Below are positions 11,250 through 19,481 of a stretch of DNA of 61,718 nucleotides, in pieces. The position numbers and the translations under genes are program-made. The DNA lies in assembly GCA_029932855.1 (NCBI GenBank), contig JAOZPG010000012.1:2962-64679 (forward strand), given 5' to 3'. Every line of letters starts with the position of its first letter. The stretch's first letter is position 1. The notes under the pieces are model-generated. The model worked only from the letters and a program-made list of their open reading frames with translations. It ran no database searches and was not told the origin of the DNA. Origin of the DNA: Bacteroidales bacterium (GTDB lineage Bacteria; Bacteroidota; Bacteroidia; Bacteroidales; VadinHA17).

Positions 11250-11756
11250 TTATAAGGTCTGGTCTTTACTGATAATATCAACTGTCTTTTTTACTTTGCT
11301 TATTAGCTGAGGCATAATCTTTGCAATCCCTTCCGATAACTCCATACTGAGTTCCTGTTGAGGAGCAATTGTTACAACAATAAGGTGAATTTCGGGGAGC
11401 GGCCCTATGAGGCTTGCTGAATCCATAAGATCTTTTAGTCCTATGTCATGCGAGGAAAGTGCTTTAGGAAAGTCTTTTGAGAACATGGGTTTAAGCATCT
11501 TGATGCTGCCCGGAAGATCATTGTCGAGAGAGGCATCTATAATTATTAATGTTTCATAGTCCTGCAGGACCTCCAGGAGATGGAAACCACCCGTACCGCC
11601 ATCAAGCAGTTTTATTTTCTCAGGCCATTTTAATTTTTCCAGTTCCTTAACTGCGTGAATACCAACTCCTTCATCCTGCAGGAGTATATTTCCTACTCCC
11701 ATTATAAGTATGTCTTTTGCAGATTTAAGCTTTCCGTTTTTCTTTGTTCTGATCAT
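11250..11756 (-). CDS. hyaD: [NiFe]-hydrogenase maturation protease
   Basis: HyaD/HybD-type endopeptidase, 168 residues. It removes the C-terminal tail of the hydrogenase large subunit after nickel insertion. The nickel-sensing acidic residues lie in MGVGNILLQDEGVG (the Glu) and IIDASLDND (the Asp), and the histidine in SSHDIGLKDL. It is the last gene of the hya operon, about 140 bp after the cytochrome b gene; that gap contains no ORF. The HyaD symbol is by role and position; the family includes HybD and HupD. Confidence 0.92.
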   Translation of the reverse strand: MIRTKKNGKLKSAKDILIMGVGNILLQDEGVGIHAVKELEKLKWPEKIKLLDGGTGGFHLLEVLQDYETLIIIDASLDNDLPGSIKMLKPMFSKDFPKALSSHDIGLKDLMDSASLIGPLPEIHLIVVTIAPQQELSMELSEGIAKIMPQLISKVKKTVDIISKDQTL

Positions 11757-12609: not shown

Positions 12610-14331
12610 TTAAAATGTTTGCAGCTGGTGAACATAAGTGCCTTTTTCATCATAAACGTGCACAGCGCATGCGATACACGGATCGAATGAGTGGATGGTC
12701 CTCAGTATTTCCAGAGGATTTTCCGGATCTTCGACAGGTGTACCGATAAGTGAGGATTCGTAGGCTGACATCTGGTTTGCCGTATCGCGGGGAGAAGCAT
12801 TCCATGTGCTTGGCACCACCAGCTGGTAATTATCTATCTTCTGATCTTTTATTTTTATCCAGTGTGCAAGTGCCCCGCGGGGAGCTTCTGAGAGTCCCAC
12901 CCCTTTTGCTTCGTCGGGCCATGTACTCTTTTCCCATTTTTCATTATTGAATGTTGAAGTATCACCGTTCTTAATGTTGGTCATCAGCTGCTCCATAAAC
13001 TCAAGTCCCCATCTGGCCACCAGCCTGGTTTCCAGTCCCCGCGCTGCTGTTCTGCCTAGCGTGGAGAACAGGGCCTCAACAGGGGCCCCCAGTGCCTGCA
13101 GACCGCTTGTAACCACTTCGTTTATTTCTTCGTTACCGGCAGCATAGCCAACTATCAGCCTTGCCAGGGGACCCACTTCCATTGGATGTCCTTTCCATCT
13201 CGGGGTTTTTAGCCAGCTGTATTTTGAATCAACATTAAGCTGGTCGTAAGGTGGTTTTGGACCGGTGTAGTTAAGACTGGTCTCTCCGTCCCAGGGATGA
13301 TGACCGGCCTCGTCCCCGTCGGAATATTTATACCATGAATGCTTAATAAATTCCTGTATCTGCTCTGCATCCGAACCATCCACCTCGTGCAGCTCATTAA
13401 GGTTGCGGTCAAGAACTACACCACGCGGGAACTTAAAGCCTGAAGGATCATTTATGCCATTCGTGGGCAGGTCTCCATAGGCCAGGTAATTTGAGAGTCC
13501 CCCGCCAATACTTGCCCAGTCGTCTTTATAAAAGCCTGCAATGGCAATAAGGTCGGGTAAATATACCTGCTCCACGAATCTCTGCCCGTCTTCAAACAGC
13601 TTCTGCACCATCGCCAGCCTTTCGGCATTAAGTGCATTATTCTCATCAAGGTTAATGGAGCAGGGAACACCTCCTACAAGATAGTTGGGGTGAGGGTTTT
13701 TACCTCCAAAGATGGTGTGTACCTTAACCATTTCTTTCTGCCATTCCAGGGCTTCGAGGTAATGGGCCACGCCTATGAGGTTAACTTCAGCAGGCAGTTT
13801 ATAGGCCTTATGTCCCCAGTATCCATTGGCAAAGATTCCCAGCTGGCCACTTTCAACAAAGCCTGTAAGACGTTTTTGAAGGTCTTTGAAATAGCCGGGT
13901 GAACTCTTTGGCCAGTGAGAGATGCTCTGTGCAATCTTTGATGTTTCACCGGGGTCTGCCTTAAGGGCCGATACGATATCTACCCAGTCTAGTGCATGCA
14001 GGTGGTAGAAATGAACAACATGATCCTGCATATATTGTGCAGCGAACATCAGGTTCCTGATGATCTCGGCATTGGGGGGGATAATTATCCCCAGTGCATT
14101 TTCAACAGTCCTTACAGAAGCCAGGGCATGTACTGTTGTACATACACCGCATACCCTTTCCACGAAAGCCCAGGCATCCCTGGGGTCCCTGCCTTTAAGT
14201 ATGAGTTCAAGCCCGCGTACCATGGTGCCTGAACTGTATGCATCGACGATCTTACCTTCTTTGATCTCGACTTCCACCCTTAGGTGGCCTTCAATTCTTG
14301 TTATTGGATCAATAACTATTCTTTTTGCCAT
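12610..14331 (-). CDS. hyaB: [NiFe] uptake hydrogenase large subunit
   Basis: Catalytic subunit of a group 1 membrane-bound hydrogenase, 573 residues, oxidising H2 at the NiFe(CN)2CO site. The four nickel cysteines are visible: Cys61 and Cys64 in RVCGVCTTVHA, and Cys552 and Cys555 in DPCIACAVH. The 15 residues after His558 are the tail removed by the maturation protease. The sequence follows E. coli HyaB closely (for example IDPITRIEGH and GRDPRDAWAFVER). A Shine-Dalgarno AAGGAG precedes the ATG, which is unusual for this phylum. It starts 14 bp after hyaA. Confidence 0.97.
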   Translation of the reverse strand: MAKRIVIDPITRIEGHLRVEVEIKEGKIVDAYSSGTMVRGLELILKGRDPRDAWAFVERVCGVCTTVHALASVRTVENALGIIIPPNAEIIRNLMFAAQYMQDHVVHFYHLHALDWVDIVSALKADPGETSKIAQSISHWPKSSPGYFKDLQKRLTGFVESGQLGIFANGYWGHKAYKLPAEVNLIGVAHYLEALEWQKEMVKVHTIFGGKNPHPNYLVGGVPCSINLDENNALNAERLAMVQKLFEDGQRFVEQVYLPDLIAIAGFYKDDWASIGGGLSNYLAYGDLPTNGINDPSGFKFPRGVVLDRNLNELHEVDGSDAEQIQEFIKHSWYKYSDGDEAGHHPWDGETSLNYTGPKPPYDQLNVDSKYSWLKTPRWKGHPMEVGPLARLIVGYAAGNEEINEVVTSGLQALGAPVEALFSTLGRTAARGLETRLVARWGLEFMEQLMTNIKNGDTSTFNNEKWEKSTWPDEAKGVGLSEAPRGALAHWIKIKDQKIDNYQLVVPSTWNASPRDTANQMSAYESSLIGTPVEDPENPLEILRTIHSFDPCIACAVHVYDEKGTYVHQLQTF

Positions 14332-14345
14332 GATGTGCTCCTTTT

Positions 14346-15455
14346 TTATTCGTTAGATTGTTCTGCTTCAATTTCCTTACGGCCTTTCATTATAAGCTTA
14401 CGCTTACGTATGTTGGTAGTAACAGCATGAGTTCCTATGGCAGCAGCGGTTGCAATGCCAAGGCCCAGCCCTATCCTGTCTGCCGTGCTTTCAATACCGA
14501 AGCCCGGGTATTCTTTCAGGTGCTGATAGAAGGGGCCATGATCCCAGAAGTTATTTTCACTGCAGCCGATACACGGATGTCCTGATTGTATTGGGAAGCT
14601 AACGCCGTTGTTCCAGCGGATAATACCACAGGCATTATAGGTATTAGGCCCTTTACAACCCATTTTATAAAGGCAGTATCCTTTCTTGGCATTCTCATCA
14701 TCGAAGGTCTCAACGAAGAGGCCTGCGTCGTAATTGGGACGGCGATAACAGCTGTCATGAACCCTTCTCGAATAAAATGCCTTGGGCCTGCCCTGGCTGT
14801 CAAGTGCGGGAATCCTGTCGAAAGCAAGCAGGTGTACCACAACTCCTGCCATAACTTCAGCAATGGGAGGACAACCGGGAACATTGATGATAGGTTTTCC
14901 TTTAATGATCTTTGAAATAGCCGTTGCTCCCGTGGGGTTCGGACTTGCACTCTGTACACAGCCATTTGATGCACAGCTTCCCCAGGCAACAATAGCACTG
15001 GCTCCTTCAGCTGCCTCAAGTAAAATATCGTAAGAACTCTTTCCCCCAATACAGCAGTAAACGCCGTCTTCCTTTTTGGGGATGGAACCCTCAACCATAA
15101 GGATATATTCTCCTTTATAGTTGGTCATGGTATCATGGAGCGATTTTTCTGCCTGGTGCCCTGCCGCAGCCATAAGTGTTTCGGTGTAGTCGAGCGAGAT
15201 CTTATCCAGTAAGATGTCTGCTACCAGCGGATGTGATGAGCGGATAAATGATTCACTGCAACATGTGCACTCCTGGAAGTGAAGCCAAATTATTGCCGGC
15301 CTCTTTTTTGTCTCAAGTGCTTTAACTACCTGGGATACCCCGCTGGCTTCAAGCCCCAGCCAGGCTCCCATTAAACCACAGAATGTAATGAATTCCCGCC
15401 TGGAATAACCCCTGGCCTTGAATTCTTCAAAGACTGTAGGACGCTTGTTATTCAT
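14346..15455 (-). CDS. hyaA: [NiFe] uptake hydrogenase small subunit, O2-tolerant type
   Basis: Iron-sulfur subunit, 369 residues. A Tat signal (SRREFITF, from residue 18) exports the folded dimer, and a hydrophobic C-terminal helix (about 328-347) anchors it. The proximal cluster region has six cysteines: Cys63, 65, 66, 161, 166 and 195. These match Cys17, 19, 20, 115, 120 and 149 of mature E. coli HyaA with a constant offset of 46, the signature of the [4Fe-3S] cluster of O2-tolerant enzymes. The distal cluster is His233, Cys236, Cys261, Cys267; the medial is Cys276, 295, 298. A strong AAGGAGG precedes the ATG. Confidence 0.97.
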   Translation of the reverse strand: MNNKRPTVFEEFKARGYSRREFITFCGLMGAWLGLEASGVSQVVKALETKKRPAIIWLHFQECTCCSESFIRSSHPLVADILLDKISLDYTETLMAAAGHQAEKSLHDTMTNYKGEYILMVEGSIPKKEDGVYCCIGGKSSYDILLEAAEGASAIVAWGSCASNGCVQSASPNPTGATAISKIIKGKPIINVPGCPPIAEVMAGVVVHLLAFDRIPALDSQGRPKAFYSRRVHDSCYRRPNYDAGLFVETFDDENAKKGYCLYKMGCKGPNTYNACGIIRWNNGVSFPIQSGHPCIGCSENNFWDHGPFYQHLKEYPGFGIESTADRIGLGLGIATAAAIGTHAVTTNIRKRKLIMKGRKEIEAEQSNE

Positions 15456-15491: not shown

Positions 15492-15725
15492 CTATTTATT
15501 ATTTTTATCATTCGATTTCTCAAGCTCTATCTTATACATTTCCCTGATCTTAAACTCTCCTTCCATCCTTATTTTATCTTTAAGCTTAAAGCCCAAAACA
15601 TTTTTTATATTCAGTAATAGCCATTCGGGTTTACATATAACCTTAACAGTTGAAGATTCATCCTGTTCGTGGATCTCAAGTATTTCTCCCTGCAGTGAAA
15701 ATATGTTCAGCTCAGGACCAGGCAT
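15492..15725 (-). CDS. small protein of unknown function, first gene of the hydrogenase operon
   Basis: A 77-residue soluble protein with no cysteines apart from one (ICKPEW), predicted mostly beta (GEILEIHEQDESSTVKVI, then FKLKDKIRMEGEF), with a lysine-rich C-terminus. It has no signal peptide or membrane helix. I do not recognise a family; an OB-like barrel is possible but is a guess. Its ATG lies about 17 bp after the expected start of transcription from the -24/-12 promoter, and hyaA follows after 36 bp, so it is very probably made together with the hydrogenase. Confidence 0.7.
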   Translation of the reverse strand: MPGPELNIFSLQGEILEIHEQDESSTVKVICKPEWLLLNIKNVLGFKLKDKIRMEGEFKIREMYKIELEKSNDKNNK

Positions 15726-15752: not shown

Positions 15753-15768
15753 GGCAAGTAATATGCCA
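15753..15768 (-). promoter_or_regulatory. sigma-54 (-24/-12) promoter of the hydrogenase operon
   Basis: On the minus strand the bases read TGGCATATTACTTGCC. The sigma-54 consensus is TGGCAYRNNNNTTGCW, so every defined position matches except the last. The GG and GC doublets are 10 bp apart, as required. Transcription should begin near 15742, about 17 bp before the ATG of the 77-residue ORF. The gene for a sigma-54 activator ends 155 bp upstream. Confidence 0.85.
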
Positions 15769-15923: not shown

Positions 15924-16901
15924 TTATTTTTCCTTACAGGCAGCAGAGAAGAGGTGTTTTCGCATTTTGTCCCTGAATGTAGAAAGGCTAAGGCCGAGAG
16001 TTTTTGCTGCTTCCGACTGGTTGCCGCCTGACTTTTTAAGGGCATTTTTAATAAGGTTGGACTCAACACAGCTGACTATCTGGTTAAAATCGTATTTCCC
16101 GTCAAGAAAACACATCTTACAGGCGTCAACTATCTGTACTATGGGCGATATCTTGCTAAGTTCAGGGGGCAGGTCCTGCAAGTCTATCCTCTTACCGCAG
16201 AACAGCGATACACGCTGGATAATATTTCTGAGTTCCCTTACATTTCCGGGCCATGAGTAGTTTATAAGGGCAACAAGTGCTTCGGGAGACAGGTCTATGT
16301 GCCTGTCGGGGGAGAACAATTTCAGAAAATGCTCTGTAAGAAGTGGAATATCATCCCTTCTTTCACGTAATGGCGGGATCTCAATGGGCACAACATTTAT
16401 CCTGTAAAAAAGGTCTTCCCTGAACATGTTTCTCCTGATAAGCTCTTTCAGATCGACCTTTGAGGCAGAGATCAGTCGTATATCCACCTCAATAGCCTTT
16501 GTTCCCCCAACCCTCATTATCTCTCTCGATTCAAGTACCCTTAAGAGCTTGGCCTGGATATCAAGGGGCACATCATCTATATCATCCAGGAAGATGCTTC
16601 CATGATGGGCCACTTCAAACAGGCCTTTCTTCAGGCGGCTGGCACTGGTAAAGGAACCCTGCTCATGTCCGAATAGCTCGCTGGCCATGAGGTCTGAGGG
16701 CATGGCTGACAATCCTATTCTTATAAATGAGTTTTGGCTCCTGTTGCTTATCCTGTGTATGTATTCGGCAAATATTTCTTTGCCGGTACCGGTTTCACCA
16801 ATAAGCATAACGGAACTGTTTGAATCAGCCATTTGTTTGATGCTGTCAATAATGGCTTTCATTTTTTCATTACAAGTAATGATGGAAAGGGGGCCCCTCA
16901 T
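15924..16901 (-). CDS. sigma-54-dependent transcriptional activator
   Basis: Enhancer-binding protein of 325 residues with no receiver or other N-terminal sensor domain. It starts directly with the AAA+ domain. Walker A is GETGTGKE (35-42). The sigma-54 contact loop is GSFTSA (82-87) instead of the canonical GAFTGA, and Walker B is FLDDIDD rather than FLDEI. The arginine-finger region (PLRERRDDIP) is intact. A Fis-type helix-turn-helix (NQSEAAKTLGLSLSTF) closes the protein. It sits between hypE and the hydrogenase structural genes and is the natural regulator of the promoter at 15753-15768. What it senses is not visible. Confidence 0.92.
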   Translation of the reverse strand: MRGPLSIITCNEKMKAIIDSIKQMADSNSSVMLIGETGTGKEIFAEYIHRISNRSQNSFIRIGLSAMPSDLMASELFGHEQGSFTSASRLKKGLFEVAHHGSIFLDDIDDVPLDIQAKLLRVLESREIMRVGGTKAIEVDIRLISASKVDLKELIRRNMFREDLFYRINVVPIEIPPLRERRDDIPLLTEHFLKLFSPDRHIDLSPEALVALINYSWPGNVRELRNIIQRVSLFCGKRIDLQDLPPELSKISPIVQIVDACKMCFLDGKYDFNQIVSCVESNLIKNALKKSGGNQSEAAKTLGLSLSTFRDKMRKHLFSAACKEK

Positions 16902-17067: not shown

Positions 17068-18102
17068 TCAACATATCCTGGGCAGCTGCTCACCCGATAT
17101 CATATCTACTATCCTGCTGCTGCCGATGCTTGTTTTCATTCTTACCATTCCGGGCGACTTATTATCAACCCTGCCTATGATACAGCTGTTTTTGCCTTCA
17201 GGCAGCTGCTTCATTGCCTTTAGTACATTATCGGCATGTTCTTCAGGGACGAACACGAGCAGTTTACCTTCATTTGCTATATATAAAGGATCCAGTCCCA
17301 GTATCTCACAGGCTCCCTTTACCTCTTCCGATAGTGGCAACTGTTTCTCATATATCTCTATTCCTGTATTTGAGGCTTTGGCAATCTCATTAAGTGAGCT
17401 GGATAGTCCGCCCCTTGTAGGATCCCTCAAAACATGTATGTCTTTTGTTACGCTAAATACTGATTCTACCAGTTTATTCAGTGCCTGTGTATCGCTTTCA
17501 ATTGAGGTCTCAAACTCAAGTCCCTCACGGGATGACATTATGGCCACACCATGGTCTGCAATATTGCCGTTGATAAGAATGATATCCCCGGGCCTGCAGT
17601 TGGATGGTGATATATCTCTTCCCTCAGGCACATATCCTATGCCGCTGGTATTTATAAAAATCTTGTCTCCTTTACCCTTTTCCACAACTTTAGTGTCACC
17701 GGTGATGATCTGCACCCCGGCATCCCTGGCTGCCTGGCCAATAGATTGTATGATAAGCCATAACTCTTCCATGGGGAATCCTTCTTCAAGAATAAGGGCC
17801 AGTGTGAGGAATTTTGGCAGTGCACCACAGCAGGCAACATCATTCACTGTTCCGTGTACCGCAAGTTTGCCTATATCGCCACCGGGGAAAAAGATAGGAT
17901 TTACAACAAAGGAATCGGTTGACATAGCCAGCTTCCCGGGCAGGTCAAATATTGCGCCATCATGCCCTTCTTCCAGGTAGCTGTTTCCCAGCTCTTTGAG
18001 AAACATTTTTTCTATAAGCTGGTTGGACAGGCTACCACCCCCGCCATGAGCCAGGGTTATCTTATCGTAGTTTGTTATGGGTACAGGGCAGGACAGATCC
18101 AT
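17068..18102 (-). CDS. hypE: hydrogenase maturation protein HypE
   Basis: 344 residues, PurM/AIR-synthase fold. HypE dehydrates the carbamoyl group carried on its C-terminal cysteine to make the cyanide ligands of the NiFe site. The protein ends in PRIC, the required terminal Cys. The glycine-rich AHGGGGSLSNQLI start and RDPTRGGLSSSLNEIA motif are typical. It follows hypD after 11 bp. HypA, HypB and HypF are not in this window and must be encoded elsewhere. Confidence 0.97.
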   Translation of the reverse strand: MDLSCPVPITNYDKITLAHGGGGSLSNQLIEKMFLKELGNSYLEEGHDGAIFDLPGKLAMSTDSFVVNPIFFPGGDIGKLAVHGTVNDVACCGALPKFLTLALILEEGFPMEELWLIIQSIGQAARDAGVQIITGDTKVVEKGKGDKIFINTSGIGYVPEGRDISPSNCRPGDIILINGNIADHGVAIMSSREGLEFETSIESDTQALNKLVESVFSVTKDIHVLRDPTRGGLSSSLNEIAKASNTGIEIYEKQLPLSEEVKGACEILGLDPLYIANEGKLLVFVPEEHADNVLKAMKQLPEGKNSCIIGRVDNKSPGMVRMKTSIGSSRIVDMISGEQLPRIC

Positions 18103-18113
18103 AATATTATTAA

Positions 18114-19196
18114 TTAGTGTTTGTAACGGAAATATGCAGCACAGGCTCCCTCGGAAGAAACCATTGGTGCTCCCAGCGGATTTTCAGGAGTACATTCTTT
18201 ACCAAAAGCAGGGCATTCTGTGGGTTTCTTTTTTCCCTGCAAGACCTCTCCGGCAATACAGAGAGGGGATTCCTGTTTTTCAATCTTTTCAAGTCCGAAA
18301 ATCTTTTCGGCATCAAAATCAGAGAATTCTTCAGACAGTGCCAGCCCGCTTTCCGGAATAATCCCTATTCCCCTCCATTTCCTGTCTATAGTGGTAAAAA
18401 CCTTATTCATGCTTTCCTGCGCAGCTTTATTACCTTCCCTGCTTACTACCCTTGAATATTCATTTTCCACCCGGGCAACTCCCTGCTCAAGCTGCCTGAC
18501 GCTTGCCAGTATCCCCTGCAGGATATCTACCGGTTCAAAGCCGGTAATAACTATGGGTACATTGAATTCAGCCGCGAGGGGTATATATTCTTCATAACCC
18601 ATAACTGTGCAAACATGACCTGCAGCCAGGAATGCCTGTATCTCTGAGCCGGGGGAGGAGAGGATGGCCTTTATTGCCGGGGGGACAAGTACATGAGAGC
18701 TGAGAAGTGAATAATTATGAATATTTTTTCTTTTTGCCTCAATCACAGAAAAAGCATTTGCAGGTGCTGTTGTCTCAAAGCCTACAGCAAAAAACACCAC
18801 TTTTTTACCGGGGTTATTTTCTGCAATCTTAACTGCATCAAGTGGAGAATATACCATTCTTACATCTCCTCCATGGGCTTTGACCTTTAAAAGGTCGCTC
18901 TCCGAGCCGGGAACCCTTAACATGTCGCCGAAGGAAGTAAGTATTACATCATCTTTCCCTGCCAGTTCGATTGCTTTATCAATAAGTTCAAGGGGGGTAA
19001 CGCATACCGGGCATCCGGGTCCGTGAATCAGGCTTATCTTGTCTGGCAGGAACTCTTCCAGGTTATATCTCATTATGGAATGTGTCTGGCCCCCGCATAT
19101 TTCCATTATCTTCCATGCTTTGCTGCATGTCCTGTGTATCTCACCGGATATTTTCCTGACAAGGTCCATATCCCTGTATTCCTCAACATATTTCAT
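18114..19196 (-). CDS. hypD: hydrogenase maturation protein HypD
   Basis: 360 residues. With HypC it forms the scaffold on which the Fe(CN)2CO group is built. Conserved blocks are [26 protein letters not shown], and [14 protein letters not shown]. The C-terminal cysteines ([31 protein letters not shown]) bind the [4Fe-4S] cluster. It lies 18 bp after hypC and 11 bp before hypE. Confidence 0.97.
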
Positions 19197-19214: not shown

Positions 19215-19481
19215 TTAATCCGCATTATTTTCCTTCTCATCTTCTTCTTTAAGCAGGCGGTCCATCTCCTCAAAGGCTTCCAGGCTCAGCCTGGCCTCTT
19301 CCTCGTCAAGCTTGTTCAGGGCCATACCAACATGTGCCAGTATATAATCGCCCACACCGGCTTCAGGGAGCCATTGAACACATATCTCTTTAATTATCCC
19401 TCCAAAGCTTACTTTGGCCATTCTCATGTCGGGATTAAGGGTGTTAACAGATACTATTTTACCGGGTACAGCAAGACACAT
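19215..19481 (-). CDS. hypC: hydrogenase assembly chaperone HypC
   Basis: 88 residues, starting MCLAVPGKIV; the Cys2 exposed after methionine removal holds iron during ligand transfer and contacts the large-subunit precursor. HypC-family barrel residues follow. The last 25 residues are strongly acidic, a longer tail than usual. It is the first gene of the hypCDE cluster. I see no -24/-12 element upstream, so this cluster may use a different promoter from the structural genes. Confidence 0.95.
   Translation of the reverse strand: MCLAVPGKIVSVNTLNPDMRMAKVSFGGIIKEICVQWLPEAGVGDYILAHVGMALNKLDEEEARLSLEAFEEMDRLLKEEDEKENNAD

Follow-up and report, generated by a model that had tools for sequence, protein, structure and literature searches.

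The hydrogenase small subunit encoded in a Bacteroidales genome of the VadinHA17 lineage (GCA_029932855.1) raises the question of whether it carries the six-cysteine proximal cluster of O2-tolerant enzymes, and what such a cluster would mean for the use of H2 in the presence of oxygen. The window, i.e., the whole stretch of DNA that was analyzed, comprises 61,718 nucleotides of contig JAOZPG010000012.1, and the genome is 2.6 Mb in size and 96% complete. The gene and the codons concerned are as follows, with positions given in the window.

14346-15455, minus strand: small subunit of the HyaA/HoxK type, 369 amino acids, with an ATG start, a twin-arginine signal (RREFITFC) and a C-terminal anchor (homology; signal and anchor read by eye)
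15258-15269, minus strand: proximal ligands Cys63, Cys65 (extra) and Cys66, codons 63-66, Cys-Thr-Cys-Cys (alignment; coordinates by arithmetic)
14958-14975, minus strand: proximal ligands Cys161 and Cys166 (extra), codons 161-166, CASNGC (alignment; coordinates by arithmetic)
14871-14873, minus strand: proximal ligand Cys195, codon 195 (alignment; coordinates by arithmetic)

The protein belongs to the [NiFe]-hydrogenase family, scoring 497 bits with TIGR00391 (cut-off 179.5) and matching PF01058 and PF14720. In a phmmer comparison its residues 47-367 correspond to positions 1-321 in chain 3uqy_S of E. coli Hyd-1, and since the two aligned stretches are equal in length the offset is 46. Cys63, Cys65, Cys66, Cys161, Cys166 and Cys195 are found at positions 17, 19, 20, 115, 120 and 149 in Hyd-1 numbering, which we take to be those of its six proximal ligands. 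An alignment with E. coli HyaA and HybO agrees, as all six cysteines are common to HyaA, while Cys65 and Cys166 are replaced by Gly in HybO. The preliminary description had claimed exactly this, namely a match to the Hyd-1 ligands at a constant offset and two extra cysteines that are glycine in O2-sensitive enzymes, and both claims hold. Gly is also present at the extra positions in chain 3myr_A and in Alteromonas. The twin-arginine signal at residues 19-26 and the C-terminal tail align with HyaA, as read from the sequence. Residues H233, C236, C261, C267, C276, C295 and C298 are conserved with both HyaA and HybO, and they presumably serve the medial (three Cys) and distal (His and three Cys) clusters. 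In the corresponding HoxK protein, positions 19 and 120 are termed supernumerary cysteines in an excerpt of PMC10583674. The likelihood that the six-cysteine match arose from chance or an artefactual alignment is vanishingly small, and this explanation was rejected because 321 residues, equal in length in query and chain, are homologous to Hyd-1 and the cysteines are kept in relatives. The proximal cluster is very likely of the [4Fe-3S] type.

The small subunit lies in an operon with the order P0002-small-large-cytochrome b-protease, in which P0002 is a conserved small protein, while hypC, hypD, hypE and a sigma-54 activator are located upstream, all on the same strand. This make-up fits a membrane-bound uptake hydrogenase.

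12610-14331, minus strand: large subunit, 573 amino acids, with CxxC ... DPCIACAVH motifs (PF00374, 797 bits)
14158-14160, minus strand: Glu58 of the large subunit, equivalent to Glu73 of Hyd-5, a second residue linked to O2 tolerance (alignment; excerpt of PMC3940037)
11899-12606, minus strand: Ni/Fe-hydrogenase b-type cytochrome, the putative quinone-linked electron exit (TIGR02125, 173 bits, cut-off 121.5)
11250-11756, minus strand: maturation protease of the large subunit (TIGR00072, 113 bits, cut-off 47.45)
17068-18102, minus strand: HypE (TIGR02124, 481 bits)
18114-19196, minus strand: HypD (TIGR00075, 508 bits)
19215-19481, minus strand: HypC (TIGR00074, 78 bits, cut-off 48)

The large subunit also has the conserved equivalent of His229 (H214). 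Concerning the class of the enzyme, the ranking of solved structures was HoxK (453 bits), Hyd-1 (430), chain 3myr_A (345) and Hyd-2 (289) for the small subunit, and 3myr_B (820 bits), 4c3o_A (781), Hyd-1 (695) and HoxG (673) for the large one. We take 3myr to be the Allochromatium vinosum hydrogenase of group 1e and 4c3o_A to be Salmonella Hyd-5. The large-subunit scores raised the possibility that the window enzyme represents the Isp-type (group 1e) line with a separately acquired six-cysteine motif, and the tree of the large subunit separates groups 1d and 1e at only 54/20. However, in a small-subunit tree of 23 hand-chosen rows a branch with 99/99 support separates 18 rows (the window clade together with four proteobacterial 1d anchors, and including two four-cysteine variants) from five rows of 1e/1c type, the 1e labels being our own assignment and the program having warned of a long HybO branch. 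Placement of the small subunit with known 1d enzymes was supported at 98/95 in a tree of 46 rows, likewise chosen by hand. The window enzyme also has Glu at position 73, which in an excerpt of PMC3940037 is described for the Hyd-5 large subunit as typical of O2-tolerant enzymes, whereas Gln is found in five other tree rows (HybC plus four that carry a 1e label or none). Neither group 1e hallmark, i.e., the four-cysteine proximal site or Gln73, is present in the window enzyme, and a TIGR02125-type cytochrome b directly follows the large subunit. Group 1e membership was judged less likely after the small-subunit tree and Glu73, and we regard a 1e origin as very improbable. As to group 1d, the HydDB assignment of the Phaeodactylibacter xiamenensis enzyme to this group is given in an excerpt of PMC5037454, and the enzyme of a Phaeodactylibacter MAG (L050) shares 70% identity with the small and 71% with the large subunit of the window and falls in the same clade, in a tree that leaves out eight duplicate or partial loci (L025, L038, L113-L116, L118, and L119). 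Group 1d had been expected from the first reading of the sequence; the small-subunit structures and tree together with Glu58 support it, and the window enzyme is very probably of this type.

Enzymes of this kind are encoded by 8 of 60 genomes, among them that of the window, by 15 of 117 genomes of the same family and by 43 of 393 of the same order. The phylum sample contained them in 97 of 395 genomes (E 1e-100 or better), with Cys at all six positions in 95 and at the covered positions in the remaining two, which are fragments. In a collection scan, the pattern of which permitted Gly at the first extra position, all six cysteines were present in every one of the best 80 of at least 583 named loci. 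Couto et al. (2015) reported only six-cysteine enzymes in the CFB group. Six-cysteine enzymes are thus already known from Bacteroidota, and the window enzyme is a typical representative of an established family; it adds little new by itself, and its value lies in the comparison set of relatives and in P0002. A side observation concerns Parabacteroides distasonis, in which hypABCDEF and a six-cysteine hydrogenase cluster lie on a sequence of 57.7 kb that was submitted as a plasmid (NZ_OY725764.1; L148).

Among the relatives in the order sample, the extra cysteines were replaced in 4 of the 42 genomes checked (of 43 with the enzyme); G224, a fragment lacking the proximal site, was left out of this check and of the oxidase counts below. 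Gly/Gly occurs at the extra positions in G051 (L023, G051:C641) and G421 (L270, G421:C146), and Gly/Asn in G006 (L024, G006:C51). G289 (L271, G289:C422) has Gly at the second position, the first being uncovered in a small subunit cut by the contig end. The 46-row tree, for which the two trait columns were omitted from the alignment, requires a minimum of four changes between the six- and four-cysteine states, which may be read as one gain and three losses, with G421 and G289 sharing one loss. Its starred branches force at least three changes, and the placement of G051 is weakly supported (88/82). G051 keeps the promoter-like site, P0002, cytochrome b and Glu73, and its contig ends before any activator. 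Both G421 and G289 show the small-large-cytochrome b-protease row and Gln73, the latter being found also in Lutibacter, their nearest named six-cysteine kin. G006 looks decayed: only 75 codons of its cytochrome b remain, neither a GG-N10-GC site nor P0002 was found upstream, and its small subunit has six changes at columns invariant in the other rows (110 rows, median 0), so that its function as a four-cysteine enzyme is doubtful.

A few relatives appear to have lost the two extra cysteines, which would amount to a natural experiment on how O2 tolerance comes and goes. Four-cysteine enzymes within the six-cysteine group are not without precedent, as Couto et al. listed four from Firmicutes, and a mesophilic Methylacidimicrobium HupS of group 1d type without the extra cysteines is described in an excerpt of PMC5364354. 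We found no report of such a loss in Bacteroidota in the open-access literature searched. In an excerpt of PMC10583674, the engineered C19G/C120G MBH has a Cys4 [4Fe-4S] cluster and retains 52% of the native methylene-blue activity, indicating that such a four-cysteine protein can work. The two natural Gly/Gly variants share 61% and 74% identity with the window enzyme, and one has Glu73 and the other Gln73. With them, the contribution of each residue to O2 tolerance could be examined in naturally occurring proteins instead of engineered ones. In addition, the two traits were compared across 128 large-subunit rows (duplicates and non-Bacteroidota included), and co-evolution of the six cysteines with Glu73 was not found. 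The 111 rows with a six-cysteine partner had Glu in 44, Gly in 61 and Gln in 5 cases, with one uncovered, and the four-cysteine enzymes of G051 and G006 have Glu. Glu73 is thus unreliable as a marker in Bacteroidota.

The respiratory setting of these enzymes was also considered. Both oxidase families, cytochrome bd and haem-copper, were missing from two of the four four-cysteine genomes (G051, with neither a CydA nor a haem-copper match above cut-off, and G289, which is 78% complete), compared with none of the other 42 enzyme-bearing genomes. The exact probability of this contrast is 0.006, obtained by hand arithmetic with no correction for relatedness or genome completeness. The association between four cysteines and lack of oxidases is not strict, since both families are present in G421 and CydA in G006. 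The genome of the window carries HypB, CydA, CydB and RpoN elsewhere, and its HypF lies beside another [NiFe] hydrogenase, which has NuoE/F- and HoxU-like subunits (L031, G000:C9:28000-42000). A haem-copper-like subunit of this genome scored below the NCBIfam and above the Pfam cut-off. A two-gene haem-copper oxidase-like pair below the NCBIfam cut-offs is located next to an Rrf2 regulator (L029:6046-8268, G000:C24).

The best explanation for the locus, in which we have considerable confidence, is a periplasm-facing, membrane-bound uptake hydrogenase of group 1d type with a six-cysteine cluster, a cytochrome b and probable sigma-54 control. The NiFe site in the large subunit would cleave H2, and the electrons would travel from the proximal [4Fe-3S] cluster through the medial and distal clusters to the b-type cytochrome and on into the quinone pool. 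From there they could reach low-O2 oxidases such as cytochrome bd, or anaerobic reductases; CydA is found in 43 of 46 enzyme-bearing genomes, compared with 48 of 60 relatives irrespective of the enzyme. The six-cysteine cluster would give up two electrons and thereby rescue the active site from O2, and transcription of the operon would probably start at a sigma-54 promoter controlled by the neighboring sensorless activator. The sequence data establish where the ligands lie, the order of the genes, the family, and the presence of P0002 and a promoter-like site in relatives as well, and from these the cluster type, cellular location, electron path, O2 tolerance and regulation are deduced.

Whether the enzyme works in the presence of oxygen, as initially suggested, depends on how the six cysteines are weighed. 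Parabacteroides, Dysgonomonas, Prevotella and Tannerella, which are mostly anaerobic genera, also carry six-cysteine enzymes, in line with an alternative in which the cluster is present as an inherited feature of the clade and the enzyme works only under anoxia, e.g., in H2-fumarate respiration. The same alternative is favored by an excerpt of PMC5364354, in which Methylacidiphilum has two hydrogenases, its six-cysteine group 1d enzyme being the oxygen-sensitive one in whole cells and expressed only below 0.2% O2, and by an excerpt of PMC10305171, in which marine group 1d genes peak in abundance in hypoxic water. The six-cysteine signature makes O2 tolerance likely but not certain. On the other hand, strict anoxia fits less well with the presence of cydAB and a haem-copper-like subunit in the genome, and with the occurrence of at least one oxidase family in all 42 enzyme-bearing genomes without a four-cysteine variant. 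The weight of the oxidases is limited, as NO reductases also belong to the haem-copper family and cytochrome bd is frequent among these relatives in any case (48 of 60). On balance, we consider a role confined to anoxia rather unlikely. The group 1d-type enzyme is probably O2-tolerant and is likely to perform useful H2 oxidation under low O2; we infer that oxidation of H2 in the presence of oxygen would most likely take place at such low levels.

A further question is how the operon is controlled, and whether its first gene contributes to the enzyme. Three features precede the small subunit.

15492-15725, minus strand: P0002, conserved small protein of 77 codons, first gene of the operon, without a Pfam or NCBIfam family (homologues; purifying selection)
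15754-15768, minus strand: candidate sigma-54 (-24/-12) promoter TGGCATATTACTTGC (exact pattern match; similar sites upstream in relatives)
15924-16901, minus strand: sigma-54 activator with AAA+ from residue 7 and a Fis-type HTH, without an N-terminal sensor domain (PF00158, PF25601, PF02954)

The promoter candidate is the sole exact match to TGGCAYN5TTGC in the window and lies 28 bases before P0002. Window-wide, the pattern alone is not significant, given that 0.45 matches are expected and at least one was obtained in 31 of 100 shuffles. Relatives were examined as well: a site scoring at least 9/11 occurs in the 500 bases preceding the small-subunit gene in 11 of 18 activator loci (L038 duplicates L022), while 4.2% of random 500-base pieces of activator-bearing loci reach this score. 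Outside the 18 loci a promoter-like site was seen in 7 of 98 rows; two of these (L114, L115) are apparently duplicates of L033 and L034, having the same identities, and in three (L023, L116, and L120) the upstream sequence is too short for an activator to be seen. In relatives, too, a P0002 homologue is the first gene of the operon. Across the 71 loci in which the upstream sequence extends to 1,600 bases or more, shorter loci and L038 being left out, P0002 was present in 13 of 14 with an adjacent activator and in 1 of 57 without; that single locus (L040) has an activator match by a looser test. L069, too short for this table, has an activator match and no P0002.

The comparison of P0002 between the window and G001 (pN 0.20, pS 0.81, the latter saturated) indicates that it is a real gene. 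It gave no Pfam or NCBIfam match at E 0.001; the predicted structure (mean pLDDT 80, pTM 0.52) contains only two strands, and the best Foldseek match against the PDB had an E value of 4.2. An iterated P0002 profile also recruited HypC from L035-L037 and L118. With a clean profile and the four HypC proteins supplied, only the L035 HypC (E 3e-5) was among the matches listed, to about E 21. The hhalign comparison of P0002 with the HypC profile returned a probability of 5% (E 0.0079), Pfam HupF_HypC reached at best E 0.06, in 2 of 19 family members, and none of the 19, some with hand-chosen starts, has the Met-Cys start typical of HypC. Identification of P0002 as HypC/HupF was not accepted. The rhizobial HupF, a HypC paralogue, stabilizes the large subunit in the presence of oxygen according to an excerpt of PMC3534401, and by analogy one may speculate that P0002 acts like HupF, though without the Met-Cys start. 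We consider P0002 a candidate for an unrecognized accessory protein. A broader reading, tentative and in our opinion improbable, would join these elements: the sensorless activator, the promoter and P0002 would form a control-and-assembly module standing in for HyaE/HyaF in one non-proteobacterial six-cysteine branch, with P0002 as a new assembly factor of the small subunit or its Fe-S clusters, and the six-cysteine site would be a labile O2 switch, turned off two or three times in Bacteroidota by replacing both extra cysteines.

Among known systems, Cupriavidus necator (Ralstonia eutropha) HoxKG shares the six proximal cysteines and includes the best solved match to the window small subunit. 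It differs in having ASWG between ligands Cys115 and Cys120, where the window has ASNG, and in its large subunit, HoxG being outscored by 3myr_B and 4c3o_A. E. coli Hyd-1 (HyaABC) resembles the window in the six ligands at constant offset and in the small-large-cytochrome b-protease order, with 53% identity between the small subunit and HyaA. In contrast to Hyd-1, the window operon has a sigma-54-type promoter and activator and no HyaE/HyaF match; E. coli HyaE and HyaF, which we take to be counterparts of HoxO/HoxQ, were without a tblastn match (E 1e-3) across 88 loci, many of which are short, so that divergent homologues, or copies located elsewhere, may exist. A. vinosum 3myr provides the closest solved large subunit but, unlike the window enzyme, has a four-cysteine small subunit and Gln73. 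The engineered C. necator MBH C19G/C120G has the same double Gly as the natural G051 and G421 variants (excerpt of PMC10583674), whereas the window enzyme keeps both cysteines. The Methylacidimicrobium HupS, from Verrucomicrobia, is likewise of group 1d type without the extra cysteines, and in an excerpt of PMC5364354 Asn takes the place of one of its four remaining cysteines, unlike the situation in G051, G421 and G006. Finally, Phaeodactylibacter and other Bacteroidota enzymes assigned to group 1d by HydDB share the clade and the six cysteines with the window enzyme; many six-cysteine relatives in this phylum have Gly or Gln at the Glu73 position, while the window clade has Glu.
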